NCBI GenBank assembly: GCA_003327425.1
Contig: QOQW01000001.1
Location: 372,001-436,000, forward strand
Direction of reading: 5' to 3'
Source of the DNA: Candidatus Ozemibacter sibiricus
GTDB taxonomy: Bacteria; Muiribacteriota; Ozemobacteria; Ozemobacterales; Ozemobacteraceae
Length of the DNA stretch: 64,000 nucleotides
A program made the translations under genes and the position numbers. Positions 13,766 to 49,980 of the stretch are shown one piece after another (the first letter of the stretch is position 1; each line of letters starts with the position of its first letter). The notes under the pieces are model-generated. The model was not told the DNA's origin, ran no database searches, and saw nothing but the letters and a program-made list of their open reading frames with translations.

Positions 13766-14941
13766 ATGTCTGATCAATCCAAGAAAACCGTCTTCCGAAA
13801 GGTGGTCGTCCCGGCCGAAGAGAAGAAGAAATACCTTGTCGGGAACACTCCCCCTTTCCTAGGGCGACCGTATGAACTGCCCACCACCGACTTCACCATC
13901 GGCCGCGAAGATGGCCGGGATCTCCAGATTCCCAATGACATGGTCTCTCGGCACCATGCCACCATCACCTTCCAGGATGGAAAGCATTTCATCACCGACA
14001 ACGAGAGCTCGAACGGGACAGCCATCAACGGCAAACCGATCCCTCCCCGGCAGCCCATCCAGCTCAATCACACCGACGTCATCAAGTTCGATGTCTTCGA
14101 ATTCATCTACGTCGATTCCGCCCGGGCCGACCTCTGGGAGACCCTCAAGCCCCTGTCCCGGGAAGGCGCCCAGCTGATCACCTTGTACAGCCCCAAAGGG
14201 GGCGCCGGTCTGACCAGCATCGCGGTCAATCTGGCCCACACCCTGGCGAACATGTCCGGCAAGAACGTCGCCATCGCCGATTTCAACCTGCGCTTCGGCG
14301 ACGTGCTGACCTATTCGGTGGGGAAAGTAGGATTGTCGATCCACGAACTGATCCAGGAGGCGGAGATCACCGGCGAGCGTATCACCAAGTACCTCCAGAA
14401 AGGTCCCGGCTATAGCTATCTCCCGGCTCCCAATAAAACCGAATATGCTGAGCTGGTCAAGGCCGAGCACGCCCGCAAGGTGTTGTGGAGCCTCGAGGCC
14501 AACCACGACTTCGTCATCGTCGATCTCAAGAACGAAATCGATGATGTCTCCCTCACCGCCTGGGAGATCTCCAACCTCATCTACGTGGTGGGCAAGCCCG
14601 AGATCGGGCAGATCCTGGCCACCAAGAAGATCCTGGAGATCATGCATCAGCTCAAATATCCCGAGACCAAGGTCAAGGTGCTGATCAACATGATCGGTCG
14701 CGAAGGCACGGTTCCGGCCGAACAGATCAAGAACCTGCTCAAGCGCGACTTCGGCACCCTTCCCTTCGCCCCTGAAGATGCGGTCCTGACCTCCAATGGC
14801 GGCCAGCTCTATGTCAAGGAACGGCCCGATTGCGGGCTGTCCCAGGGCATCAAGCGGTTGGCCGCGGACATCTGCGGACAGAAGGCCGAAATCCCTGAAG
14901 GCGGGATCTTCAGCAAGCTCAAGGCCATTCTCGGCTTCTGA
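13766..14941 (+). CDS. FHA domain-TadZ/CpaE-like ATPase fusion
   Basis: A 391-residue protein. An FHA phosphothreonine-binding domain (about 40-115) is recognised by GR at 46-47, SRHH at 61-64 and NG at 83-84. The remainder is a ParA/MinD-superfamily domain like CpaE/TadZ, which position pilus or secretion machinery. The P-loop reads KGGAGLT, with Leu in place of the second lysine of KGGxGKT, so nucleotide hydrolysis is doubtful; TadZ proteins often have atypical P-loops. Only five bases separate it from the Ser/Thr kinase gene, so its FHA domain is probably read by, or a substrate of, that kinase. The start is set by the ribosome site at 13752-13759. Confidence 0.88.
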   Translation: MSDQSKKTVFRKVVVPAEEKKKYLVGNTPPFLGRPYELPTTDFTIGREDGRDLQIPNDMVSRHHATITFQDGKHFITDNESSNGTAINGKPIPPRQPIQLNHTDVIKFDVFEFIYVDSARADLWETLKPLSREGAQLITLYSPKGGAGLTSIAVNLAHTLANMSGKNVAIADFNLRFGDVLTYSVGKVGLSIHELIQEAEITGERITKYLQKGPGYSYLPAPNKTEYAELVKAEHARKVLWSLEANHDFVIVDLKNEIDDVSLTAWEISNLIYVVGKPEIGQILATKKILEIMHQLKYPETKVKVLINMIGREGTVPAEQIKNLLKRDFGTLPFAPEDAVLTSNGGQLYVKERPDCGLSQGIKRLAADICGQKAEIPEGGIFSKLKAILGF

Positions 14942-14946
14942 TCTCG

Positions 14947-16716
14947 ATGCCCGATTACACTGGCAAACGGGCTGGCAACTATACCATTGTCCAGAAGCTG
15001 GGTGATGGCGGCTTTGCCACCGTCTATCTCGCCCAGCACACGATCCTCGAGAAAAAGGCGGCCGTCAAATTCCTCCTCGAGGAGTGGGTCAACGAACCCG
15101 ACGTGGTGAGTCGCTTCTTCGACGAAGCGCGCACCATGGAGCGCCTCAAGGATCACCCCAACATCATTTCGATCATCGACATCGCCAGCCACGAGCAATG
15201 CCAGCAGGAGGGCCTGCCTCCCTACTTCATCATGGAGTACGTGGATGGCAAGTCGCTCGAGCAGCTCATCCATTCCGACGAGGGGTTCACGCTCGAGTTC
15301 GTCATCAATGTCATCAGTTGCGCCCTTTCCGCGCTCGATCACTGCCACAAGATGGGCGTCGTCCATCGCGACATCAAGCCCAGCAACATCCTGTTGAAGA
15401 GCGACGGCACCGTCAAGCTCACCGATTTCGGCATCGCCAAGGCCAAGGTCAACACGAGCAAGACGGGAGCGGGGCTGACCCTCGGTTCGACCGATTACAT
15501 GTCGCCCGAGCAGGCGCTCGGCAAACGCGATCTCGACCATCGTTCCGATATCTACTCGCTCGGGGTGACGTTGTACGAACTGGTGACCGGGAAGTTGCCC
15601 TTCGTGGCCGACAATCCCAATTCGGTCGCCCTCATGCACATCCAGGAAAACCCCAAGCCGCCGATCGAGATCAATGACGCGGTGCCGCCCCGCTTGAACG
15701 ACATCATCCTGAAGGCCATGGAGAAGAAGCGGGAAGACCGCTTCCAGTCCTGTCAGGAATTCCTCGACGCGTTGAAGAAGCTCGATGAGCCCGAACCGCC
15801 GGTGGTGGCCGAGGTCGAGACCGTCGACCTGTCCAAGATGAAGGCCGAACTCCCCGAAGAAAACCTGATGGACAAGGAATCGGGCATCACACCGGCCGTG
15901 CGCGCCACCCGCTCCCAGGCGGCTCTGGCCGGCCCTTCCCCCGTTCGGCTCGTGTTGTTCTGGGTGGCCGTCGTCCTCGCGTTCGCCTTGATCATCCTGG
16001 GCGGTTTCAAGGCCTATCAATATTTCCAGCTTTGTCCGGTGACCTTCTCCTCCATCCCGCCCGGAGCCCAGGTCGCCCTGGATGGCAAGGTCATCGGCAC
16101 GGCTCCCGTCACTTTGTCGGTAGGGCCCGCGCCCGCTCGCGTAGTCATGACGCTCGAGGGCTTCCACCCCCTGGCGGCGCGTCTCGAGCCCACGCCGGGC
16201 AGGCCGTTGTCGTTCGAACGCACCCTGCGCAAGCTCGAGCCCCAAGCCCTCGAGGACATCCGGGCCGGGATCAAGGCCTACGAAGCCGCGGCCGCCGGTC
16301 CGGCCAAGAATCGGCAGCAGGCCATGGCCGACGCCCTCCGCCGGCTCGGGCGCCACCTCGACGATCACCCGGCCGCCGATGAAGCCCATCTCGAATTCGT
16401 GCGGTTCTGCATCAAGCACTCCCTGCTGCCCAATGGCGAAGTCTACTACCGCCATCGCTTGTCCAAATTCCCCGATCACCCGCTCTATCTCACCATGCTT
16501 GGCATGCTCCTGGCGGCCAAGGGAGCCGCCGACGAAGCGCTCGATCTCTACACCAAAGCCTGGTACAAAGATCCTGACAGTGTCATCCTGCTCAATGCCC
16601 TCGGGGATTTCTTCCTCGCCAAGAAGGATACCGTCCGGGCCGAGCAGTATTTCAAGCTCTCCATTTTCCTCGACCCGACACAGGACGAAGTCCTCCAGAA
16701 ACTCCAGGGCCTGTAA
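14947..16716 (+). CDS. membrane Ser/Thr protein kinase with PEGA and TPR extracytoplasmic region
   Basis: A 589-residue Hanks-type kinase. The glycine loop GDGGFATV, Lys41 (AVKF), HRDIKPSN (140-147), DFG (160-162) and SPEQALG activation segment are intact, so it should be active. A juxtamembrane linker rich in acidic residues leads to one transmembrane helix (about 332-358). Outside are a PEGA-type domain (SSIPPGAQVALDGKVIGTAP) and a helical region with two or three TPR-like repeats near the C-terminus. PknB-like kinases sense the cell envelope through such regions. Second gene of a three-gene operon with the FHA-TadZ protein and a PP2C phosphatase. Confidence 0.93.
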   Translation: MPDYTGKRAGNYTIVQKLGDGGFATVYLAQHTILEKKAAVKFLLEEWVNEPDVVSRFFDEARTMERLKDHPNIISIIDIASHEQCQQEGLPPYFIMEYVDGKSLEQLIHSDEGFTLEFVINVISCALSALDHCHKMGVVHRDIKPSNILLKSDGTVKLTDFGIAKAKVNTSKTGAGLTLGSTDYMSPEQALGKRDLDHRSDIYSLGVTLYELVTGKLPFVADNPNSVALMHIQENPKPPIEINDAVPPRLNDIILKAMEKKREDRFQSCQEFLDALKKLDEPEPPVVAEVETVDLSKMKAELPEENLMDKESGITPAVRATRSQAALAGPSPVRLVLFWVAVVLAFALIILGGFKAYQYFQLCPVTFSSIPPGAQVALDGKVIGTAPVTLSVGPAPARVVMTLEGFHPLAARLEPTPGRPLSFERTLRKLEPQALEDIRAGIKAYEAAAAGPAKNRQQAMADALRRLGRHLDDHPAADEAHLEFVRFCIKHSLLPNGEVYYRHRLSKFPDHPLYLTMLGMLLAAKGAADEALDLYTKAWYKDPDSVILLNALGDFFLAKKDTVRAEQYFKLSIFLDPTQDEVLQKLQGL

Positions 16717-16729
16717 GAGAGGAGGGACC

Positions 16730-17488
16730 ATGGACTACAAATGGTTCGCCATCAGCGATGTGGGCAAAGTTCGAACCAACAACGAGGATGCCTATTTCGC
16801 CACCGATAAATCCGGCGTGTTCATGGTTGCCGACGGGATCGGCGGACACAAATCCGGGGAAGTGGCGTCCGCCAAAACACGAGAGATCTTGCTGCAACGC
16901 CTGTCGCAACTGCCTGCCGGGGAACCCCTGGAGCCGCTGCTGCGAGAGGCCTTCCTCGAAGCCAATGCCAAGGTGCGCGAGCAGGCCGCCTCCGCCCCGG
17001 AATACCAGGGCATGGGTTGTACCTGCGCCGTCCTGGCTCTACGCGAAAACGAATTCTCCCTGGCCCATGTCGGGGACTCCCGCATCTACCTCTATCGCAA
17101 GGGGACGCTCAAACAGGTCACCCGCGATCATTCCTATGTCGAAGAGCTCTTCATCAGAGGCCTCATTACGGAAGAAGAAAAGATCGACCACCCGTACAAA
17201 CATCAGATCACCCGCTACATCGGCTCTTCCGCCAAGCTCGAAGTCGACATCACCTCCGGGCCGGTCTACAACGGCGATGTCTTCCTGCTGTGTTCCGATG
17301 GTCTGACCGACGAGGTCGGCCCCGACAAATTGCAGCAGATCTTCGATCGCAACCTCGAGCCCAAGGAGACCGCCGAGGCCATGGTCCAGGAGGCGCTGGC
17401 CGCCGGCGGCCATGACAACGTCACCGTCGTGGTGGTCAAGATCACCGGCAAGAAAACCAGTTTCTTCAAGAAGATCCTGGGCTGGTGA
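16730..17488 (+). CDS. PP2C-family protein serine/threonine phosphatase
   Basis: A 252-residue cytoplasmic phosphatase, probably reversing phosphorylation by the adjacent kinase. Metal-binding PPM motifs are complete: NNEDAYF, VADGIGGH, the GMGCTCAV strand, HVGDSRIYL, SDGLTDE and HDNVTVV. The length is that of bacterial Stp/PrpC enzymes. The ATG at 16730 follows GAGAGGAGG, 13 bases after the kinase stop. A long reading frame running in from 16379 is only overlap with the kinase. Confidence 0.95.
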   Translation: MDYKWFAISDVGKVRTNNEDAYFATDKSGVFMVADGIGGHKSGEVASAKTREILLQRLSQLPAGEPLEPLLREAFLEANAKVREQAASAPEYQGMGCTCAVLALRENEFSLAHVGDSRIYLYRKGTLKQVTRDHSYVEELFIRGLITEEEKIDHPYKHQITRYIGSSAKLEVDITSGPVYNGDVFLLCSDGLTDEVGPDKLQQIFDRNLEPKETAEAMVQEALAAGGHDNVTVVVVKITGKKTSFFKKILGW

Positions 17489-17527
17489 CGTTTCGCCCGA
17501 GGGCGGGCCGTTCCCGTCCATTCCAGG

Positions 17528-17563
17528 CAGGGGCCTCCATGGCGCGATCCACGGAGGCCCCTG
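17528..17563. terminator. bidirectional hairpin between convergent operons
   Basis: A perfect 11-base inverted repeat (CAGGGGCCTCC with GGAGGCCCCTG) around 14 bases. It is followed on the plus strand by a pyrimidine-rich CCTTTCTT-type stretch. It lies between the phosphatase and the TadZ gene that meet head-on. Confidence 0.65.
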
Positions 17564-17605
17564 ACCTTTCTTCGGAATTCGGGGCGAGCGGCGGCGGGTG
17601 GGAGG

Positions 17606-18817
17606 TCAGAGACCGAAGACCTCCCGAATGAGGGAGAACATGTTCCAGGTGCCCTTTTCGGGCTCCTCGCCGACCAGACGCTGGCACAGCTTGTCGACCG
17701 CCATGAAGAGAGGCGAGCCCTCGAGCCGCTGCATGACGAAGGGGACGCCGGCATTGATCGAGGGGATGACGATGTCGCCTTCGCTGGGAATGAAATGGCT
17801 GATCGCGTACCGCAGCGAACTCTCGACGCGGGAAGGCTCGAGCCCCATCGCCTTGAAAGCGCGGTTGAGCACCACCTTGACTTTTTCGCGCGGAATTTTG
17901 AGCCGTTGCAGCAAATCGAGCAGGACCTTGGTGTTCTTCACGAAGGTCAGCTCCATGGTCATCATGAGGAAGATCAGATCGCTCATCTCGAGGATCATCA
18001 TCTCGAGGTCGGTCAGTTGGTTGTGGGTGTCGACGATGACGAAATCGTAGTTGGCCCGCAGAATCTCCAGGACCTGCTCGACGAACTCGGTCTTGATCTT
18101 GTTGGCCAGCTCGGGCGAAGGCGGTGGGAGGAGGACTTTCAGGCCTGATGAATGGGGAGTCAGCTGCTCTTCGATCTTGGCGATCTTGAGTGGTGGCCGG
18201 CAGAGGGAAAGTTCATAGATGTTGCGGTCGCAGGGCAGGCTGAGCAGGATCGCCTGGTCGCCGAAGGCCAGGTTGAGATCGACCAGCACCACTCGCTTCC
18301 GCCACTGGCGGGCGAGCATGACCGCCGTGTTGGCCGACATGACCGACTTGCCGGCGCCGCCCTTGACGTTGAAGAAGGTGACGATCTGTCCGAAGACGGC
18401 CTTGGTGAGGCCATGCTCGAGGAGGATCGGCGCGCGCCGGGAATACAATTCTCGCGTCTCGCGGGCGAACCCGGGATAGAGGCCGATCAGCCGCAGAATG
18501 AAATCCCGGGGGATGAACATGACCTGGAAATCCTGATACCCGACCAGGGTGCACAACGCATTGGTGCCGTTGAGGATCTCGACTTCACCATAGGTATCGC
18601 CCGGGTCGAGGGTGAAGAGGGTTTTTTTCTTTCCGGCATGGGATTTGATGACCGAGACCTGCCCTTCGACCACGAGGAGGAACTCTTCGAGTGTTTCCCC
18701 TTCCTTGAGGATGGTGGTTCCCGACGTGAATTTGTTGAAACGACAGGCTTTCTTGATCTTCTCGACCTCGCGGGTCGGAAGGGTACTGAAAAAAGAGAAA
18801 TTCTTCAGATCGATCAT
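17606..18817 (-). CDS. cNMP-binding-like domain fused to TadZ/ParA-family ATPase
   Basis: A 403-residue protein. Residues 1-120 form a Crp-like cyclic-nucleotide-binding beta barrel (LKEGE..EEFLLVVEGQVSVI, DTYGEVEIL). The phosphate cassette has GE, but the usual PR-[SA]A arginine is absent (GTNALCT), so nucleotide binding may be lost. From about 143 there is a ParA/MinD ATPase with an intact deviant Walker A (KGGAGKS, 152-158), VLVDLNLAFGDQA and VIVDTHNQLTD. This is the likely active counterpart of the P-loop-defective FHA-TadZ in the neighbouring convergent operon. Such proteins localise pilus or secretion systems. GAGGAG precedes the ATG. Confidence 0.88.
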   Translation of the reverse strand: MIDLKNFSFFSTLPTREVEKIKKACRFNKFTSGTTILKEGETLEEFLLVVEGQVSVIKSHAGKKKTLFTLDPGDTYGEVEILNGTNALCTLVGYQDFQVMFIPRDFILRLIGLYPGFARETRELYSRRAPILLEHGLTKAVFGQIVTFFNVKGGAGKSVMSANTAVMLARQWRKRVVLVDLNLAFGDQAILLSLPCDRNIYELSLCRPPLKIAKIEEQLTPHSSGLKVLLPPPSPELANKIKTEFVEQVLEILRANYDFVIVDTHNQLTDLEMMILEMSDLIFLMMTMELTFVKNTKVLLDLLQRLKIPREKVKVVLNRAFKAMGLEPSRVESSLRYAISHFIPSEGDIVIPSINAGVPFVMQRLEGSPLFMAVDKLCQRLVGEEPEKGTWNMFSLIREVFGL

Positions 18818-27094: not shown

Positions 27095-28660
27095 GTGCAG
27101 AACCGTCTGCTGACCATCATGTTCCTGGATGTTCAGGGCTATACGAAGCGGACGGCACAGGCGACGCGGGAGGAGATGACCCGCTACGTCGAAGAGATCC
27201 GGGCGTTCGTCGACAAACACATCGCCAGATTCCAGGGCACCCTGGTCAAAACCATGGGCGACGGCTTCCTGGTCTCCTTCGAGTCGCCCACCAACGCCGT
27301 GCAATGCGGGCTGGAGATGCAAAAGCAGATCCGGCTGAAGAATGCCACGCTGCCCAATCCGAACCACTACACCCATTTCCGGATCGGCATCAATACTGGT
27401 GAAGTGAGCATCGACGAAAAGGGCGACCTGTTCGGCGACCCCGTCAATATCGCGGCGCGCATCGAAAGCTTCGCCGAACCGGGCGAAGTCTTCATTTCCG
27501 AGGCCACCTACCTGGCCATGAACCGCAATGAGGTGGGCGCGGTCGATCTCGGCCCCCAGTCGTTCAAGAACGCGACCAAGGAGATCCGCATCTACAAGGT
27601 TTCGGCCGAACGGGAGGCCCGCAAAGCGGGGGGGACCAAAAGTCCCGCCGCGAGCCAGACCGCGCCACCGCCGGCCACGGGCCGGCAGGCCTGGCGCCCG
27701 CTGATCGTGGGGCTGGCGATTCTGCTGGCAGGCGGAGCCCTGTTCCTGGTCTACAAGCGGTGGGTCGCGCGCGCGGTCCGCTTGGCCACCGAACGTCCGG
27801 CGGTTGGGGGCGCGCCCAATGCGGCTCGCCGCGAGCCGTCGGCGCCTTCCGAGATGCTCGTGGGCGAGCCTTCCCCGGGGATGGAGACCGCCAGCCGGGT
27901 CGCCGCTCTTCCGGCCATGCCGCCTGGCGAGCCTCACCCCGGAGAAAGACCTCTCCCGCCTGGCATAGGTGCTCCATTACCCGGCCAAGGCCCTGGACGT
28001 CTGCCAGAGCCCTCACCCATGGGGCCTCCTCCGGCGGGGGGGCATGGCCGCTGGCCGCCGACGGCCTTCCCATCGGGATTTCCTCCGGCCGACCGCTCGC
28101 CTGGTCCGCCGCCGGGAGACCAACGGCCCTGGCCTTCTCCTCCTGGCCCCACGCCCGATGAGACTCCTCCCTTCCCCCCTCCCCAGGGGACCCCGCCGCC
28201 CTCCTCCGGCGAGGGACCGGGGCCGTGGCCTCCCGATAACACAGGCTCTGGGAGGGATTTCCCTGCGGTGGTCCTGGTCCGGTTTCCTGGGGCCAATCGG
28301 CCGCCTCCCGTGCAAGAACTCCTGGACCGGGTCGATCAAGCTGCTGCGCAGAGGAATTTCGCCGAGGCCGCCGAGTTGGTCGGCCAGGCGGCGGCTGTGG
28401 GCAGACGTCTGGGGTGGGAATTCTCGTCGCTCGATCTGGCTCGCATGGCCAAGATCATGATGCAGGCAGGATATCCCAAAAAGGCGGCAACATTGCTCGA
28501 AAAAGCGATCGAGCTGGCGCCTGGCGATCAGCCCCAGCTCCGCCATCTCCTCATCGGCATCCTCGAGCGGTTGGAACGACGAGTTCCGGGTAAAGCGGGC
28601 CCGGGGCGGCCCGGTCGGCCTCCCCTCTGGGGGTCGAGGATGGGCCCGGGCGAACGCTGA
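27095..28660 (+). CDS. class III adenylate/guanylate cyclase with a Pro-rich and TPR-like C-terminal region
   Basis: A 521-residue protein starting at GTG (27095) with GGGAGG. The cyclase domain is at the very N-terminus: FLDVQGYT and KTMGDGFLVSF carry the two metal aspartates, and DLFGDPVNIAARI carries the substrate/transition-state residues. It therefore looks active. One membrane helix (about 200-222) follows, then about 160 residues very rich in Pro/Gly, then a short helical TPR-like region (about 405-490). Most class III cyclases have the sensor before the catalytic domain; here everything beyond the membrane is C-terminal. Coupling to PBP1A suggests an envelope-sensing role, by inference. 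cAMP versus cGMP cannot be decided. Confidence 0.88.
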   Translation: MQNRLLTIMFLDVQGYTKRTAQATREEMTRYVEEIRAFVDKHIARFQGTLVKTMGDGFLVSFESPTNAVQCGLEMQKQIRLKNATLPNPNHYTHFRIGINTGEVSIDEKGDLFGDPVNIAARIESFAEPGEVFISEATYLAMNRNEVGAVDLGPQSFKNATKEIRIYKVSAEREARKAGGTKSPAASQTAPPPATGRQAWRPLIVGLAILLAGGALFLVYKRWVARAVRLATERPAVGGAPNAARREPSAPSEMLVGEPSPGMETASRVAALPAMPPGEPHPGERPLPPGIGAPLPGQGPGRLPEPSPMGPPPAGGHGRWPPTAFPSGFPPADRSPGPPPGDQRPWPSPPGPTPDETPPFPPPQGTPPPSSGEGPGPWPPDNTGSGRDFPAVVLVRFPGANRPPPVQELLDRVDQAAAQRNFAEAAELVGQAAAVGRRLGWEFSSLDLARMAKIMMQAGYPKKAATLLEKAIELAPGDQPQLRHLLIGILERLERRVPGKAGPGRPGRPPLWGSRMGPGER

Positions 28661-32497: not shown

Positions 32498-32554
32498 GAC
32501 GCGGGCCGTTCCCGCTCGTTTCCCCAGGTCGCAGGCGGCCGAGGCGGGGTGCCG

Positions 32555-35224
32555 ATGACTCTGCAGCGGCGGCTGGCCCAGGGGATCGGGGTGATCCTGG
32601 CCGGGCTTCTCATCTTTCTTGGTTTCACGACGAACTCCTTCCATCAGATCGATCAATTCATCACCTCCACTCTTTTCCAAGAGATCGAGATCGCCAGGGA
32701 CTACGAGCACCTGGCCGACCTGTGGGTGGAGATCGACGATCTAGTGCAGCAGCATCTGTCCGATCACCGACGGACCGCCGCCCTGGTTCCTGAGGAGATG
32801 GTCCAGCGCTTCGAGCAATCGCTGGAACGGTTGGACGGGAAGATGACCGAGCCGGCTTATCGGGCGTCGTTCGCGCCGGTCCAGGGCGCGGCCCAGTCCT
32901 ATCTCAAGAAGTTGCGCGACCTCGAGCGGCAGGCCGCCCGGCGGGCGGCCCTGGCCCGGCGGGAAATCCAACGGCGGGACGGCGCGGGGCAGGCGATGAT
33001 CACCAAGGTCGGCGACCTGCTGAGCCGATACCGGAAGATGATCGCCGACTTTTCGGAGACCCTCAAGAATGATGATTTCCAGGCCTCGCTCGGGACGACC
33101 TCGACGTTGATGGTCAAGATCTCGCGCATCGAACGCGATCTGGATATCGCCGAGAACGAGGTGGCGCTCTACCTCAGCTTGCGCAATGAGCCGTCCGCCG
33201 GGGTGGCCACGGCCCCGGTCGACCGGACCGCGGTCGCCGAGCGGGTGCAGAAGCGGTTGCAAGCGGTGATCGGCTTGCTGAGCCGATCGATCGAAGAGAC
33301 CACCAATCCGCTGCAATTGCGGGTCTTCAGCAGCATCCGGACCAAGATCCAGGAATTCCGGCGGAGCTTCGCCGAACTCCGGGATTCCTTGGAACATTCC
33401 GACAGCGAGAAGCTCGAACTCGACGATCTGGTCGGCACGCTGGCCAGCGATCTGGAAGCCCTGCGCCGGCGAGGGGTGGGCATGGCCTTTCGGGAGGCCC
33501 AGGTCTTCTGGCAGCGCATCGGTCAGACGTCAGAGGGCCTGCTCTCGCGGATCCGGGCCAATCGGCAGGCCGGGCTGGCCCTGCTCCTTCTTGTACTGTT
33601 GCTGGGATCCTATGTGGCCATCGTCTTCCCGCGTCGGATCGGCGGTCCCTTGATGAAGCTCGCCAGGGCGGTGGAAGAATTCCGCTTGGGGAAGGAGTTC
33701 CCGGAACCGGCCCCCACCGGGACCATCGAGATCGATACCCTGGCCAACGCCTTCCACCAAGGATCCCAACGGCTGAATGCCCAGGCCGCGCTCAATCAGA
33801 AATACCTCACTACCATCCGGGAACTCGACCAGGTCTATCGCGAACTGCAGAGCCCACCTGGCGAAGAGGAGCTGGATGCCCCGCGGCAGCGCCTCGAGAA
33901 GGCGGTCAACATGGTCCTGGAGCAACTGCTGGAAAACATTCCGCAGATCGATCTGGTGAAGTTGATGTATTTTCCGCGGGATGCCGAAGGTCGCCCGCAG
34001 ACCAATGGGCCCCTGGTGCGGCTGGGCGAGACGCATACCAGCCCCGCTTTCCGGGAAAGCCCGGAGTTCGCCGAGTATGCCGAATCGCTAGGCATGGCCC
34101 AGGGGCGTGAGGAGAGCATTCCCCTGGGAGAAGGCCTGACGGGCTGGTTCTTCTGCCATGTCACGCCGACCACCGTCGGCGTCAACGATCAAGGGTTGTT
34201 TCCGGTGTATCCGATCACCCCCATCCGCGATCTCCCCCCCCTCCAGGACCGCACCCTCGAGAAGGGGCTGCGAGGATGCCTGTACCTGGAGAAGATCCAG
34301 CGGCCGAATGTTCCACTCGACCTCGACAGCAGCACGGAAGTGCCCGCGCTGGGCGCCCTCTTCGTCTACTTTTCCCGACCCGATGTCCGGTTGTCCTGGC
34401 AGGATCTCTCATTCATCAAGATCATCGCCAGCCAGCTTGGTTCGGTGCTCGAAATCCACTACCTGCAAGTGGAAAGCGAGAAGATGCGGCGGATGGCCCA
34501 TCAGCTGCAGATGGCCCGGGAGATCCAGGAGAACCTCCTGCCGACCAGCATCCCGGAGGTTCCAGGCCTGGTCCTCGACGCCGCCAGCAAGCCGGCGGCC
34601 GATGTGGGTGGCGACTACTACGACTGTTTCCCGGTCGGGGCTACCCGTCTGGGGGTGGTGATCGCCGACGCGGCGGGCAAGAACGTGCCGGCGGCCATTC
34701 TGATGACCGTGCTCAAGACGACGCTTTCCACCATGGACAAGGAAACCATGACGGCTTCTGATGTGTTGACCAAGGCCAATGCCATCATCCTGCGCAACAT
34801 CACCAGCGATCGCTTCATCACGGCCATGTACGCTATAATCGATGCCGTGACCGGCGAGGTGGAACTCTCGTCGGCGGGCCACAATCCAGCGCTGATCGTC
34901 ACCGGCCACGGCGCCCAGCGTGCGATCCAGGAGAAAGCCGTGCCTGGCCTTCCTCTCGGCATCACGGAAGTCACCTATCTCGCCCAGCGCTTCCAGCTGA
35001 AACGCGGCGATCTCCTCGTCCTGTACACCGATGGGGTCACCGATGCCCGCAATCTGGCCAAGCAGTCCTTCGGGATGTCGGGGTTGAAACGGTACCTCGC
35101 CGGCCCGCGCACGGCGCGCATGGCGCACGGCTTGATCGAGGTGGTGCAGGAGTTCGCCGAAGGCATGCCCCAGCAGGATGACATCACCGCCCTGACCATC
35201 GAATTCCAGGGGAGAGCGGCATGA
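32555..35224 (+). CDS. membrane-bound SpoIIE/RsbU-type PP2C phosphatase with HAMP- and GAF-like domains
   Basis: An 889-residue protein. The first membrane helix (about 8-30) and a second (about 345-365) bracket a 310-residue, highly helical extracytoplasmic sensor with coiled-coil stretches. A HAMP-like segment (VFPRRIGGPLMKLARAVEEF) and a GAF-like domain (about 450-640) follow. The C-terminal SpoIIE phosphatase (about 650-885) has LPTSIPEVPG, ADVGGDYYDCF, IADAAGKNVPAAI, SSAGHNPALIV, YTDGVTDARN and QQDDITALTI. It would dephosphorylate an anti-sigma antagonist (STAS) protein; one is encoded 3 kb away. Start placed at the ATG (32555) rather than the GTG at 32549. Overlaps the methyltransferase gene. 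Confidence 0.9.
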   Translation: MTLQRRLAQGIGVILAGLLIFLGFTTNSFHQIDQFITSTLFQEIEIARDYEHLADLWVEIDDLVQQHLSDHRRTAALVPEEMVQRFEQSLERLDGKMTEPAYRASFAPVQGAAQSYLKKLRDLERQAARRAALARREIQRRDGAGQAMITKVGDLLSRYRKMIADFSETLKNDDFQASLGTTSTLMVKISRIERDLDIAENEVALYLSLRNEPSAGVATAPVDRTAVAERVQKRLQAVIGLLSRSIEETTNPLQLRVFSSIRTKIQEFRRSFAELRDSLEHSDSEKLELDDLVGTLASDLEALRRRGVGMAFREAQVFWQRIGQTSEGLLSRIRANRQAGLALLLLVLLLGSYVAIVFPRRIGGPLMKLARAVEEFRLGKEFPEPAPTGTIEIDTLANAFHQGSQRLNAQAALNQKYLTTIRELDQVYRELQSPPGEEELDAPRQRLEKAVNMVLEQLLENIPQIDLVKLMYFPRDAEGRPQTNGPLVRLGETHTSPAFRESPEFAEYAESLGMAQGREESIPLGEGLTGWFFCHVTPTTVGVNDQGLFPVYPITPIRDLPPLQDRTLEKGLRGCLYLEKIQRPNVPLDLDSSTEVPALGALFVYFSRPDVRLSWQDLSFIKIIASQLGSVLEIHYLQVESEKMRRMAHQLQMAREIQENLLPTSIPEVPGLVLDAASKPAADVGGDYYDCFPVGATRLGVVIADAAGKNVPAAILMTVLKTTLSTMDKETMTASDVLTKANAIILRNITSDRFITAMYAIIDAVTGEVELSSAGHNPALIVTGHGAQRAIQEKAVPGLPLGITEVTYLAQRFQLKRGDLLVLYTDGVTDARNLAKQSFGMSGLKRYLAGPRTARMAHGLIEVVQEFAEGMPQQDDITALTIEFQGRAA

Positions 35225-36145: not shown

Positions 36146-37735
36146 TCAGGATGACGAGGTGGTGGGATCGAGGGGCGGATGGATGGCCTGGGCGGCGGTG
36201 ACGCGGTTGCGCCCGTTCTCCTTGGACCGGTAGAGTGCCTCGTCGGCGGCCTTGATCAGGGCCTCCGCTTCGGTGGCGCTGTCGGGATGGACGGAGACCC
36301 CGAAGCTGGCGGTGATGCGGATGGTCTTGCCATTGTGTTCGATGACTTCGTGTTCGATCGACTTGCGGACCCGCTCGGCGACGGCCAGGGCCCCGGCCAT
36401 GTCGGTCTCGGGGAGGACCAGGGCGAATTCCTCCCCGCCGTAGCGGACCGGCAGATCGTGGGTGCGCACCGCCTTGCGCATGATGGAGGCGACGCGTTTG
36501 AGCACCTCATCGCCGGTCTGGTGGCCGTAGGTGTCGTTCAGCTTCTTGAAGTGATCGATGTCGATCATGATCAAGGCGAGATTCCGCTTGAACCGGACCG
36601 CACGTTTGAACTCATCGGCCAGGCGCTGCTTGAAATAGCGGTGCAGGTAGAGATGGGTCATGCCGTCAGTGATGGCCTGCTCGTACAGCTTGGCGTTCTT
36701 GACGGCGGCCCCCAGCTGGACGGCGAAGACTTTGATCAAGCGCTGGTCGCGCTCGGTGAAATCGCCCTGGCTGATCTTTTCCGAGAGGTGCATGAGGCCG
36801 AGGAATTCGCCCTGATGGATGATGGGAACGATGATGAAGGTGTTGCCGAAGATGCGGCTGTCGAGTTCATTGAGGTGCAGGTCGTTCAGGCCATTGGCTG
36901 TGCGGATCAGAGGGACTTTGTGCTGCAGCAGGTGGTGGCAGAGGGGGGAATCGGCCAGCGGCAGGTGCTCGGGCAGATTGGCGGAATCGCCCAGGTGGCT
37001 GCACAGCGTGAACCGCTCGGTATCTTCGTCATAGAGCCAGATGCTGCCGCGGGTGACTTCGGAGATTTCGGAAGTCGCGTTCATGGCCATGTCGAGGAGG
37101 GTCTTCAGCTGCAGCTCGGAGGCGATCATCTGGGTGGCCTGGTACAGGATGCTCACCTCCTGGATCTTCTCGTCGAGCCGTTTATTGGTCTCGCGCAGCT
37201 CGGACAGGAGGAGGAAGTTGTTGATGGCCACCGAGATATTGCGGGAAAGGGTGGTGAGGAAGCTGGTCTCCTTTTCGGAGAAGGGGCTGCGTTTGAGTTT
37301 CTGGCCGACGACCAGCAGGCCGATCAGCTTCTCGCGGACTTTGAGGATGGAGATGCTGTTGAGGTCGTCGGCGGCGAACTGGGCGATCAGGTGCTTGAGG
37401 TACGGGAAATCGGCCGCACTGAAGGTGATGGGATCGGCCAGTTTCTCGAGGGCATCGACTTCTTCGCGCGTGAGGACGACGCTGGCCTTGCGGGCGGAGA
37501 GTTTCCAGGAGCAGCGGAGGGAGAGCTCCCCCGACATGCTGTCATACAGGAAGATGCCGCCCTTGCTGACGCCGAGGGTGCCTAGGAGCAGGTGCAGGAG
37601 CGATTTGAGCTGGGTTTCGAAGCTGGTGACCCGACAGAGTTCTTCCCCGATGTCGCTGAGGGCTTTCAGGACGTACTCGTACCGAAGAACCTGTTCTTGG
37701 TAGGATTGGTCCTGGGGTTGCCTCTCGTCGGCCAT
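36146..37735 (-). CDS. diguanylate cyclase with two GAF-like domains
   Basis: A 529-residue cytoplasmic protein making cyclic di-GMP. Two GAF-like domains (about 30-175 and 195-345) are joined by a helical linker. The GGDEF domain has MIDIDHFKKLNDTYGHQTGDEVL, the active-site signature GGEEF and the C-terminal ADEALYRSKENGRN. An inhibitory I-site, RTHD, lies five residues before GGEEF, so product feedback is expected. It begins eight bases after the STAS gene, suggesting that stress-type partner switching and c-di-GMP output are co-expressed. Confidence 0.94.
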   Translation of the reverse strand: MADERQPQDQSYQEQVLRYEYVLKALSDIGEELCRVTSFETQLKSLLHLLLGTLGVSKGGIFLYDSMSGELSLRCSWKLSARKASVVLTREEVDALEKLADPITFSAADFPYLKHLIAQFAADDLNSISILKVREKLIGLLVVGQKLKRSPFSEKETSFLTTLSRNISVAINNFLLLSELRETNKRLDEKIQEVSILYQATQMIASELQLKTLLDMAMNATSEISEVTRGSIWLYDEDTERFTLCSHLGDSANLPEHLPLADSPLCHHLLQHKVPLIRTANGLNDLHLNELDSRIFGNTFIIVPIIHQGEFLGLMHLSEKISQGDFTERDQRLIKVFAVQLGAAVKNAKLYEQAITDGMTHLYLHRYFKQRLADEFKRAVRFKRNLALIMIDIDHFKKLNDTYGHQTGDEVLKRVASIMRKAVRTHDLPVRYGGEEFALVLPETDMAGALAVAERVRKSIEHEVIEHNGKTIRITASFGVSVHPDSATEAEALIKAADEALYRSKENGRNRVTAAQAIHPPLDPTTSSS

Positions 37736-46175: not shown

Positions 46176-46299
46176 CCGCTCGGCGAACCTTGGAACTATT
46201 TTCGCTCAGCGGTCTGGTTCAGGGTTCAGGGCGATCCCTGGCGTGGCGGTCCTGATCGGGTGCGAAAGGAGCGCCCCCTCCACCCTTGGCCAGGATCAC

Positions 46300-46328
46300 T
46301 TGCAACTCTGGAAGGATGGGAGTAGAAA
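46300..46328 (+). promoter_or_regulatory. promoter of the pilT-pilT-cyclase unit
   Basis: TTGCAA (46300-46305), 17-base spacer, TAGAAA (46323-46328). The start near 46335 would leave a leader of about 100 bases, in which I see no clear structure. Confidence 0.45.
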
Positions 46329-46435
46329 ATGAGAGAGGCAATGGGCAAGGCAGGGGAACCCCTTTCCAAATCCTGAAAAAGGGTCGATGGAAAGGGTCGG
46401 TATCTCCACCGACCATTGTCCGCGGAAGGGAAGGC

Positions 46436-47512
46436 ATGGACGAACAACTGGCGGAAATCCTGTCTTTGTGCAAGAAGATGGGGGCGTCCGACGTGCACCT
46501 GAGGGCGGGCCTGCCTCCAGTCTATCGGGTAGGGGGGCGGATCCAGTTGACCTCCGGCCTTCCCTTGACCAATGACACCCTGAAGCGGTTCTTCGAGAAG
46601 ACCGCGCCACCGGTGACGCACAAAATGCTCGAGACGCAGCGGGACGTCGACTATTCGGTCTCCCTGCCGGGGGTCAGCCGGTTCCGGGTCAATTGCTTCT
46701 ACCAGAAAGGCCATCTGGCCTTCGTCTTTCGGCAGATTCCCTTCACCTTGCCGACCATCGATTCGATCAAGTTGCCCAAGGTCATGGTCGATTGCGTGCA
46801 GCGCAGCTCGGGGTTGTTCCTGCTATGCGGTCCCACCGGCTCGGGAAAGAGCACCACCATCGCCGCGCTCCTCCAGTTCCTCAATTCCACCTATCAGGTG
46901 AGGGTCGTCACCCTGGAAGACCCCATCGAATTCTTGTTCCGTGACGAAAAATGCGAGTTCCTGCAACGCGAGCTGCGTCGTGATTTCACCAGCTTCCCCG
47001 AGGCGCTGCGGGGGACCCTCCGGCAAGATCCCGATATCATCATGGTCGGAGAGATGCGCGAGACGGAAACTATCGAGCTGGCCCTGACCGCTGCCGAAAC
47101 CGGGCATCTCGTCATCTCCACGCTGCATGCCAGCAGCACGGCGTCCGCCATCGCCCGCATCCTCGGTGTCTTTCCCGCCGACGCCCGCGAGTTCATCCGC
47201 GACCAGGTGGCATCCGTGCTGATCGGCATCGTGGCGCAGGCGCTGATTCCGTCCAAGCGCGATCCGGCGGTGCGGGTGGCCGCCCGCGAAATCCTGATCA
47301 ACAATCCGGCGATCGCCAACCTGATCCGCAATGACAAGCACGAGCAGATTCCGATGTTCCTCGAGACCGGCACCGATGTCGGCATGATCTCGATGAATGC
47401 CGCCCTCGAGGACATGGTGGTGCGCGACGTGATCACCCCCGACCAGGCCTTCCCCTACAGCCCCGATCCCGAAGCGCTCCTGTCGCGCTTCGAACGCAAA
47501 GGTCTCCTATGA
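46436..47512 (+). CDS. pilT: type IV pilus retraction ATPase PilT, copy 1
   Basis: A 358-residue secretion/pilus ATPase. The N-terminal domain begins LAEILSLCKKMGASDVHLRAG. The ATPase has Walker A GPTGSGKST (about 138), the Asp box VVTLEDPIEFLF, Walker B DPDIIMVGEMRE and the His box TGHLVISTLHASS. The PilT-specific C-terminal helix appears as AIANLIRNDKHEQI (AIRNLIRE in most). It powers pilus retraction/twitching. The ATG at 46436 follows GGAAGGGAAGG; the 50-residue longer frame is excluded. It overlaps the second copy by ATGA. Confidence 0.93.
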   Translation: MDEQLAEILSLCKKMGASDVHLRAGLPPVYRVGGRIQLTSGLPLTNDTLKRFFEKTAPPVTHKMLETQRDVDYSVSLPGVSRFRVNCFYQKGHLAFVFRQIPFTLPTIDSIKLPKVMVDCVQRSSGLFLLCGPTGSGKSTTIAALLQFLNSTYQVRVVTLEDPIEFLFRDEKCEFLQRELRRDFTSFPEALRGTLRQDPDIIMVGEMRETETIELALTAAETGHLVISTLHASSTASAIARILGVFPADAREFIRDQVASVLIGIVAQALIPSKRDPAVRVAAREILINNPAIANLIRNDKHEQIPMFLETGTDVGMISMNAALEDMVVRDVITPDQAFPYSPDPEALLSRFERKGLL

Positions 47513-48555
47513 TCGACAGCCTGAACACGATCGTGGCCAAGGCCATGGCACTGGGGGCCCACGATGTGCATCTGAAGGCGGCCTTCGCGCCGATCGTGCG
47601 GGTGGCCGACGAGATCCGGCGACTCGACATGCCGCCGTTCTCGCCGAAAGAGATGGAGCGTCTCGTCTTCCAGATGCTCGATGAGCGCCGCCTCCAGATC
47701 TTCAGGGCCAAAGGGCAGATCGACTGCTCGTTCGAACTGCCCAACGGCGTGCGGGCGAGGGCCAACGTCTTTTTCCAGCGCAACAACCTGGCCTTGTCGC
47801 TGCGCCTGATTCCCCAGAAACCGCCAACCCTCGAAAAACTCGGATTTTCCCAGGACGTCATCGATCTCATCCTCAAGACCAATCGGGGCATGGTGCTGAT
47901 CACCGGAGCGACCAACTCGGGCAAATCCACCACCGCCGCCGCCGTGATCGATACTCTGGCGCAGCGCGAGTCGGTTCACGTCATCACCATCGAAGATCCC
48001 GTCGAGTATGTCTTCGGTTCCTACCCCTCATCCATCGTCAGTCAGCGTCAGGTCGGCGAAGACACCCCCAGCTTCAACCACGGGCTCACCTCGGCCCTGC
48101 GCCAAGATCCCGACATCCTGTTCATCGGCGAACTGCGCGATCAGGAAACCGTCGAAACCTGCCTGAAAGCCGCGGAAACCGGGCACCTGGTCATCGGGAC
48201 CCTGCATACCGCCAATGCGACGCAGAGCATTCTCCGTCTGATCAACATCTTTCCCTCCCATCAGCGCGACAACGTCCGGTTCATGCTGTCGAGCTGTCTC
48301 AAGGCCATCGTCTCGCAGGCCCTGCTGCCGATGCCCTCCCGGCAAGGGCGGGTGCTGGCCTACGAAGTGCTGCCCATGTTGCCATCGGTCTGCAATCTGA
48401 TCCGGCAAAAGAAGATCCACGAGATCGCCTCGATTCTTCGGGTGGGCCGACGCTCGGGGTGCATTCCCATGAGTGCGACCTTGAAAGATCTGCTCAAAAC
48501 CGGGCAGGTCAAAATGGCTGACATTCCGCCCGAATTGCGGGAAGACCTCAAGTAG
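47509..48555 (+). CDS. PilT/PilU-like pilus ATPase, copy 2
   Basis: A 348-residue paralogue of the preceding PilT. It keeps ALGAHDVHLKA, Walker A (GATNSGKST, with Thr-Asn in place of Thr-Gly), VITIEDPVEYVFG, DPDILFIGELRD and TGHLVIGTLHTAN, and a CNLIRQKKIHEIASIL helix in place of AIRNLIRE. Tandem pilT-pilU pairs are known in twitching bacteria, where PilU assists PilT; this arrangement fits. Translationally coupled to copy 1 and followed nine bases later by a cyclase gene. Confidence 0.92.
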   Translation: MIDSLNTIVAKAMALGAHDVHLKAAFAPIVRVADEIRRLDMPPFSPKEMERLVFQMLDERRLQIFRAKGQIDCSFELPNGVRARANVFFQRNNLALSLRLIPQKPPTLEKLGFSQDVIDLILKTNRGMVLITGATNSGKSTTAAAVIDTLAQRESVHVITIEDPVEYVFGSYPSSIVSQRQVGEDTPSFNHGLTSALRQDPDILFIGELRDQETVETCLKAAETGHLVIGTLHTANATQSILRLINIFPSHQRDNVRFMLSSCLKAIVSQALLPMPSRQGRVLAYEVLPMLPSVCNLIRQKKIHEIASILRVGRRSGCIPMSATLKDLLKTGQVKMADIPPELREDLK

Positions 48556-48564
48556 GCGGTGGCG

Positions 48565-49980
48565 ATGGGCCTGCTCGATCGCCTGACCGGCAGCGGCAAA
48601 GAGCTGGAAGAGCTGCGCAAGGAGCTGGCTTCCTGCAAGGAACGCCTGCGCCGCGCCGAATTCGAACGCGACGACTACCACAAGAAGAACCTGCACCTGA
48701 TCGACAAGACGCACGCCTTCTTCCAACGGCTGCGCCTGCTGGTCAGCACCCTGGACGATGAACACGTCGTCGCCCGTGCCTGGGATCTGCTCGACATGGC
48801 TCTCGGCATCAAGAAAGGCGGCATCTTCGATCGGACCGACCAAGGATGGGTGGCGGTCCATGCGGTGGGCTTCCCCAACAACCAACCCCCGATCATCCCT
48901 CTCGAGGAAGATTCGATGGCCACCTACGTGGCCGAGCACGGCGTTCCCCTCAGCATCCCCCAATTGCGCCAGCAGGATGACCTGGGGTACCTCGAGCGAC
49001 GGGGGGTGATCCCCGATATCAAGATCGCCTGTCCGATCCGGGTTCGGGGAAAGGTCGAGCGGGTTCTGCTCATCTGTTCCTACGCCGGCAACGTCTTCGC
49101 CAACGAGGATGATCTCGAGACGCTCGAGATGGTAACCACGCTGCTCGGGTTGGTGCAGACGAATGCCGCCATTCTCGCCGAACAGCGGCAGGCGCTGGCG
49201 CAAACGACCCAGGCCTTGCAGGAGCAGACCCAGGCCCTGGGCAGGCTGCGCAGCATCTTCCAGCGCCTGGTGGCCCCGGAAGTCATCGACCACCTCGAGA
49301 AGAATCCCGACGGTATCGTGCTCGGGGGCACCCGCCAGACCATCGTCATCATGTTCGTCGATATTCGCGGGTTCACGCAGATGTCCGAGAACCTGCCCCC
49401 CGAGAAGATCATCGAACTGCTCAACCGGTATTTCACGCGGGTGACCGATATCGTCCTCGAACACAAAGGAACCCTTGACAAGTTCATGGGCGATGCCGCG
49501 ATGGTGCTGTTTGGCACGCCCGTCCCCATCGATCAGCCGGTCGATCGGGCCGTGGCGGCCGCCTTGAAGATCCAGGACATGGTCCGGGACAACATGGCCG
49601 AATGGGTTTCGTTGGGGTTTCCCGCTTTCTCGGTAGGCATCGGGATCACCTACCAGGACGTCGTCGTAGGGAATGTCGGCTCGCAGAAACTCTCGAGTTT
49701 CACCGCCATCGGGGATGGAGTCAATCTGGCCTTTCGGCTCTCCTCCATTGCGCGAGGCGGGGAGATCCTGGTTTCCGAGTCGGTCTTCGAAAACCTCCAC
49801 GACTGGCAGGGCAAGGTCGAGCAGCGGCCCCAGATCCAGCTCAAAGGCAAGGCCGAGCCTCAGATCGTCTATGCTCTCTCCCGGTATGAACCCGGTCGCA
49901 CTGGTCTCTGCCCGCAATGCGGCGCGCCGGTCGCCGAGGGGGCCCGCTTCTGCGGCGGTTGCGGCTTTCGCCGCTTCTGA
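48565..49980 (+). CDS. class III cyclase with GAF domain and C-terminal zinc ribbon
   Basis: A 471-residue soluble protein. A coiled-coil start (about 10-50), a GAF-like domain (about 60-200) and a helical stalk (QALAQTTQALQEQTQALG) lead to a class III adenylate/guanylate cyclase (about 245-440). The metal Asp residues are in MFVDIRGFT and DKFMGDAAMVLFG, and the Asn/Arg pair in GDGVNLAFRL, so it should be active. The last 25 residues form a CPQC...CGGC zinc ribbon. Start taken as the ATG at 48565; a GTG six bases earlier is possible. Co-transcription with two pilT genes suggests cyclic nucleotide control of pili, as known for cAMP in Pseudomonas. Confidence 0.9.
   Translation: MGLLDRLTGSGKELEELRKELASCKERLRRAEFERDDYHKKNLHLIDKTHAFFQRLRLLVSTLDDEHVVARAWDLLDMALGIKKGGIFDRTDQGWVAVHAVGFPNNQPPIIPLEEDSMATYVAEHGVPLSIPQLRQQDDLGYLERRGVIPDIKIACPIRVRGKVERVLLICSYAGNVFANEDDLETLEMVTTLLGLVQTNAAILAEQRQALAQTTQALQEQTQALGRLRSIFQRLVAPEVIDHLEKNPDGIVLGGTRQTIVIMFVDIRGFTQMSENLPPEKIIELLNRYFTRVTDIVLEHKGTLDKFMGDAAMVLFGTPVPIDQPVDRAVAAALKIQDMVRDNMAEWVSLGFPAFSVGIGITYQDVVVGNVGSQKLSSFTAIGDGVNLAFRLSSIARGGEILVSESVFENLHDWQGKVEQRPQIQLKGKAEPQIVYALSRYEPGRTGLCPQCGAPVAEGARFCGGCGFRRF

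Follow-up and report, generated by a model that had tools for sequence, protein, structure and literature searches.

A co-inherited Ser/Thr kinase, PP2C phosphatase and two CpaE/MinD-like ATPases as a candidate phosphothreonine-controlled switch

ParA/MinD ATPases act in the positioning of pili, flagella, chromosomes and organelles, usually in the form of homodimers that a partner protein drives. The closest described relatives of the proteins analyzed here are CpaE of Caulobacter and TadZ of Eubacterium rectale, which are described, like the present ATPases, as a MinD/ParA-type ATPase preceded by an N-terminal signalling-type domain, with a deviant P-loop and a C-terminal tail (PMC13170226). 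The same source describes Caulobacter CpaE as a predicted homodimer (PMC13170226); E. rectale TadZ is reported to have ATPase activity despite the absence of both lysines (PMC10482377). In DgcB of Bdellovibrio, the FHA domain is described as binding the protein's own N-terminal threonine peptide (PMC6733907), and in T7SS subtypes and the Agrobacterium T6SS a membrane kinase, a PPM phosphatase and an FHA protein are reported to be tied to a membrane machine (PMC11217815).

Here, a locus of Candidatus Ozemibacter sibiricus is compared with these systems. It lies in a window of 64,000 nucleotides (contig QOQW01000001.1, positions 372,001 to 436,000), the whole stretch of DNA that was analyzed.

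Layout of the locus and its kinase–phosphatase pair

The locus comprises the following features (window coordinates):

13766-14941, + strand: FHA domain and CpaE/MinD-like ATPase (FHA-ATPase), 391 aa, P-loop YSPKGGAGLT, Pfam FHA and AAA_31
13787-13798, + strand: Thr8-Val9-Phe10-Arg11, N-terminal to the FHA domain, a motif conserved in orthologues
14947-16716, + strand: PknB-like transmembrane Ser/Thr kinase, with Pfam/NCBIfam matches and a hydrophobic segment
16730-17488, + strand: Stp1-type PP2C phosphatase, 252 aa, NCBIfam match, C-terminal tail KKTSFFKKILGW
17606-18817, - strand: cNMP-fold and CpaE/MinD-like ATPase (cNMP-fold ATPase), 403 aa, P-loop NVKGGAGKS, Pfam cNMP_binding and AAA_31

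The FHA-ATPase, kinase and PP2C genes run in one direction, spaced by 5 and 13 bases, and the cNMP-fold ATPase gene converges on this trio, so that the two ATPase genes are separated by the approximately 2.7 kb that hold the kinase and the phosphatase. The initial annotation had described two TadZ-like ATPase genes facing each other, with the loops KGGAGLT in the FHA protein and KGGAGKS in its counterpart, and a kinase next to the former. Both genes, their orientation and both loops were re-read as claimed, and the adjoining gene downstream of the FHA-ATPase indeed encodes the PknB-like kinase.

Several other signalling and motor genes were observed in the window. A class III adenylate/guanylate cyclase domain accompanied by TPR-like repeats (27095-28660, +) lies at a distance of about 8 kb from the cNMP-fold ATPase. 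Further along are a SpoIIE-type phosphatase whose N-terminal region is long (32549-35224, +), a GAF-GGDEF protein (36146-37735, -) and two neighbouring T2SSE/PilT-like ATPase genes (46286-47512 and 47509-48555, +), after which comes a class III cyclase carrying a zinc ribbon (48559-49980, +).

The kinase scored 329.7 bits against the NCBIfam model of PknB (PASTA kinases; NF033483), below its cut-off of 450. It has one strong hydrophobic/transmembrane segment at about residues 333-351, with PEGA and TPR matches C-terminal to it and no PASTA match in Pfam or NCBIfam. Since the PEGA/TPR part follows a single transmembrane segment, it is probably located outside the cytoplasm. The phosphatase exceeded the cut-off of the Stp1-type model (NF033484; 249.1 bits, cut-off 230) and continues beyond that model in an extra basic and aromatic tail (17450-17485, +), which resembles the tails of both ATPases. 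This end reads FFKK.[LF].W in nine of 13 complete copies (the window's and 12 others), the remaining four having different tails. The FHA-ATPase ends in [GA]GIFxKL[KR]... in 15 of 16 complete rows, L027 being the one that differs, and the cNMP-fold ATPase in TW.MF...[KR][ED]V... in all 15 orthologues. Where CpaE/TadZ proteins have a C-terminal amphipathic membrane helix, the tail here is conserved and hydrophobic/basic, with a hydrophobic moment that was not above background for the tails tested (45th percentile for the FHA-ATPase). As the hydrophobic moment singles out none of the tails, membrane binding rests on their conservation and on the CpaE precedent, which together suggest that both ATPases and the PP2C may sit at the membrane.

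All-or-none inheritance of the four genes

Orthologues of the FHA-ATPase were found in 18 and those of the cNMP-fold ATPase in 15 of the 24 family genomes (G000-G023), which are part of the 56 genomes searched for each ATPase. Both were present in 15 genomes, the FHA-ATPase only in three, neither in six and the cNMP-fold ATPase only in none (Fisher p 0.0006, 24 genomes, relatedness ignored). The three FHA-only cases are fragmentary: in G004 and G022 the contigs end within the PP2C gene, and in G008, a genome that is 64% complete, the contig with the FHA gene is 4.5 kb long and no kinase or PP2C match was above the thresholds used. Of the 15 two-ATPase genomes, 13 have the four genes in a single block, a count that includes G016 and G023, whose blocks are broken by contig ends within the FHA gene. 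In G007 and G014 (genus g6), kinase and PP2C genes adjoin the FHA gene and the cNMP gene is on a different contig. The block is also retained in G003, where none of the other window genes searched for was detected in its 19.5 kb.

In three genomes that lack the cassette, G006, G013 and G019, the lipoprotein-like and SH3 genes of its two flanks are separated by 496, 811 and 520 bases, respectively, with no fragment of the four cassette genes between them. The lipoprotein-like gene of G019 has the opposite orientation to that in the window, and the 2.5 kb on its far side were likewise free of any trace of the four genes; three genomes of the same genus (g11), G015, G018 and G020, all carry the cassette. 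This comparison leaves out G002, where the lipoprotein gene gave no match and the SH3 gene only a weaker, partial one, and G010 and G021, whose contigs end at the flank. The empty sites of G006, G013 and G019 outweigh the Fisher test because draft genomes can miss linked genes jointly. A distance-correlation test of the two ATPases gave a weak result (r 0.876, partial 0.657, against partial values of 0.625 and 0.828 for control pairs; 10 genomes).

Within the family, therefore, the kinase and PP2C genes and both ATPase genes are inherited together or not at all. The co-occurrence expected by the initial annotation, that of a conserved pair with unequal P-loops and different input-type domains beside a kinase, is borne out, the two ATPases being present together and absent together. 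This pattern is the strongest evidence that both act in one pathway with the kinase and the phosphatase.

A scan of genome contigs detected 17 FHA-ATPase loci, which, judged by the lengths of their contigs, are the same set as the orthologues already found. Among the listed matches of a 315-genome search (minimum completeness 80, mostly six candidates scored per genome), no full-length FHA-ATPase fusion appeared beyond family f1, the other matches covering the ATPase half only, and no fusion of FHA to CpaE or TadZ was found in the open literature searched. The loci lie in records titled Candidatus Riflebacteria, Rifleibacterium, Ozemobacter or Ozemobacteraceae, apart from a few with other labels: Methylomirabilis, Erysipelotrichia and 'uncultured bacterium', under which the orthologues L087, L096 and L091 appear, and 'bacterium'. 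These other titles probably reflect mistakes in naming or binning, or bins left unclassified.

P-loops, input domains and paralogues of the two ATPases

The FHA-ATPase matched Pfam FHA with 71.4 bits (cut-off 20.7) and AAA_31 with 27.8 bits (cut-off 27). Its Walker lysine is replaced by Leu149, and across the orthologues from the 24 family genomes this position is Leu in seven of 18 and Ile in 11, never Lys, the count including L024 and L026, whose FHA genes are cut by contig ends and which are excluded from the tree and tail counts. The aliphatic residue is kept in orthologues with as little as 46% identity; the orthologue from another species of the same genus is 87% identical. No variation occurs at the signature Lys144, the P-loop glycines, Asp172 or Asp253, and Ser/Thr150 after the aliphatic residue is retained. 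The pattern KGGxGK[ST] with both lysines thus fails throughout, the signature lysine being present in 18 of 18 orthologues and the Walker lysine in none, so that the departure first noticed in the window extends to every FHA homologue checked. Random decay of the P-loop was ruled out by the same alignment, with Leu or Ile in all 18 and the remainder of the loop conserved. As read from these sequences, the loop of the FHA group is remodelled rather than decayed, and provides a natural example of an aliphatic residue fixed at the Walker lysine of a well-conserved protein.

The phosphothreonine-site residues of the FHA domain (G46, R47, S61, R62, H64, N83 and G84) are invariant in 18 rows, with GR, SR.H and NG all present. 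Ahead of the domain, KT[VI][FY]R is found in 17 of 18 orthologues, which makes Thr8 a possible phospho-target; compared with the self-peptide pattern (hydrophobic at +2 and +3), +2 is aromatic and +3 is Arg. The predicted structure has a MinD-like fold, with 3ea0 (Z 28.7, rmsd 2.3, 238 residues) and MinD 3q9l (Z 26.3) as nearest folds, the AlphaFold models of the FHA-ATPase and the cNMP-fold ATPase being only fair (mean pLDDT 79 and 69, respectively).

The cNMP-fold ATPase scored 53.1 bits for Pfam cNMP_binding (cut-off 27.5) and 47.5 bits for AAA_31 (cut-off 27), and matched 3ea0 by sequence with an E-value of 2.3e-16. All 15 orthologues have the Walker lysine and match KGGxGK[ST] with both lysines. 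The front domain adopts the PF00027 fold, with CRP and PKA-R among its fold matches, as well as Trypanosoma PKA regulatory subunits titled cAMP-independent. In PF00027 domains an Arg holds the cyclic phosphate. The Gly-Glu of the phosphate-binding cassette is retained in the paired ATPase, and the Arg position is Leu88, with Leu in 15 of 15 orthologues, in agreement with the earlier reading of a cNMP-like domain without this residue. With an invariant Leu in place of the Arg, the domain probably does not bind a classical cyclic nucleotide, if it has a ligand at all. The window that encodes this Arg-less protein also contains class III cyclase domains.

At least five further CpaE/MinD-like proteins with varied front domains are encoded in the genome from which the window comes. 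In a tree of 93 ATPase domains, the family proteins fell into five groups, each behind a fully supported branch: receiver-domain CpaE (22 rows), FHA (16), paired cNMP (15), cNMP-B (16) and cNMP-C (10). The Walker residue is Arg in 14 and Lys in eight of the 22 receiver-domain CpaE proteins, Lys in all 16 cNMP-B proteins, and Arg (seven), Cys (two) or Asn (one) in the cNMP-C group (L002, L132-L140), in which Lys is lost in all 10. The Walker position therefore flips within a single orthologue group, the receiver-domain CpaE of the Tad locus (L003 (G000:C50), L064, L065, L069, L101-L118). The cyclic-phosphate Arg is present in 16 of 16 cNMP-B proteins, and its column is not kept in the cNMP-C group. 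The FHA group joins the cNMP-C paralogues (support 94/90) and the paired cNMP-fold ATPase joins sequences of another family (84/35), the program having warned of a long branch in both cases. Tandem duplication as the source of the pair was ruled out by this tree, in which the two are not sisters. On this phylogeny, the FHA-ATPase and the cNMP-fold ATPase are old paralogues, and the FHA group is set apart among its relatives by a Walker residue that is always aliphatic.

The initial annotation had taken the broken P-loop as a mark of an inactive partner. This part of the claim is not supported: the lysine is also absent from CpaE-like paralogues (Arg, Asn or Cys) and from 3ea0 (Gly), and E. rectale TadZ is reported as active without it. 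Loss of the Walker lysine is frequent among CpaE/TadZ relatives and, by itself, need not imply inactivity.

Possible readings of the cassette and comparison with known systems

The all-or-none inheritance, the intact FHA site, the oppositely fixed P-loops and the different front domains lead us to read the four genes as a single functional cassette that would act as a reversible switch of the CpaE/MinD type, controlling positioning or assembly through phosphothreonine; we give this reading about an even chance. Using its periplasmic PEGA/TPR part as an envelope sensor, the kinase would phosphorylate threonines, either its own, those of a partner or Thr8 of the FHA-ATPase. The mark would recruit the FHA-ATPase by docking. 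With its signature lysine and aliphatic Walker position, this protein might bind nucleotide weakly or turn it over slowly and thus serve as the phospho-set subunit, while the cNMP-fold ATPase would provide a normal nucleotide cycle, the two meeting either in a mixed dimer or in a common assembly at the membrane, and the PP2C would reset the state. A membrane Ser/Thr kinase and phosphatase joined to two unequal ATPases would directly link envelope sensing to spatial organization. A stricter version, in which an FHA-read, lysine-less ATPase and a normal-P-loop cNMP-fold ATPase blind to cyclic phosphate form an obligatory mixed dimer, so that phosphorylation directly sets an ATP-driven membrane cycle, appears rather unlikely.

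The ATPases could also be two separate homodimeric switches of one pathway, with phosphorylation as the signal for the FHA-ATPase, some other input for the cNMP-fold ATPase, and no division into active and inactive partners. That they are not sister paralogues, that their genes are on different contigs in G007 and G014, that Caulobacter CpaE is a predicted homodimer and that CpaE-type P-loops without Lys are common make this arrangement a real possibility, albeit one with less than an even chance, given that both ATPases are inherited all-or-none with the kinase and phosphatase and that their P-loop states are fixed oppositely (18 of 18 versus 15 of 15). Complete loss of nucleotide binding, which would make the FHA member a pure phosphothreonine-reading scaffold (a pseudo-ATPase), is harder to reconcile with the invariant Lys144, glycines, Asp172 and Asp253 and the retained Ser/Thr150, needless in an unused site, with 3ea0, which lacks the same lysine, and with the activity reported for E. 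rectale TadZ; despite an aliphatic substitution in 18 of 18 orthologues that is more drastic than the Arg or Asn found in other paralogues, we consider it improbable.

The pilus-positioning role proposed initially is not supported. The genome does have a Tad locus, on another contig (C50), comprising CpaB, a secretin, a receiver-domain CpaE, a TadA-type ATPase, two T2SSF proteins, a prepilin peptidase and a TadE-like protein, and this CpaE, with a Response_reg domain, has Arg at the Walker lysine. CpaB occurs in 21 of the 24 family genomes and in 17 of the 18 with an FHA orthologue. Together with the homology of both ATPases to CpaE/TadZ, this would fit accessory forms that take the place of the receiver-domain CpaE at the Tad pilus or modulate it there. 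However, no tad gene was found among the cassette neighbours examined, the conserved neighbours being the kinase and the PP2C, and the Tad locus already has a CpaE of its own. CpaB is retained in G002, G006 (as a fragment), G019 and G021, where no cassette was detected, and the receiver-domain CpaE in G019 and G006; since Tad genes are kept where no cassette was found, the Tad locus does not need it. Conversely, CpaB was not found in G022 (82% complete), which has the FHA gene; nor was it found in the cassette-less G013 (70% complete). The Tad pilus is thus not favoured as the object positioned by the cassette, and an accessory role there seems highly improbable.

Returning to the reading of a phosphothreonine-controlled cassette, its parts have separate counterparts in known systems. 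The best PDB sequence match for both ATPase domains is 3ea0, a ParA-family ATPase of Chlorobium tepidum that, like the FHA-ATPase, lacks the Walker lysine (KGGDGGS), but is a 245-residue chain without an FHA or cNMP domain and has Gly instead of Leu or Ile. DgcB resembles the FHA-ATPase in carrying an FHA domain on a catalytic output domain (PMC6733907), and its FHA structures (6hc0/6hc1) are among the best PDB FHA matches, but its output is a diguanylate cyclase (GGDEF), and the self-peptides of DgcB, GarA and OdhI have a hydrophobic +3 that the Thr8 motif lacks. Unlike the kinase–phosphatase–FHA modules of secretion systems, the cassette has no secretion genes, and its FHA reader is itself a MinD-like ATPase. 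With respect to CpaE/TadZ, an FHA or cNMP-fold domain replaces the receiver or pseudo-receiver domain, the pair lies outside a tad/cpa locus with a kinase and a phosphatase as neighbours, and the Walker lysine of the FHA-ATPase has given way to an aliphatic residue. The putative switch would thus be made up of CpaE/MinD-type ATPases with swapped input domains, coupled to a Ser/Thr kinase–phosphatase pair.
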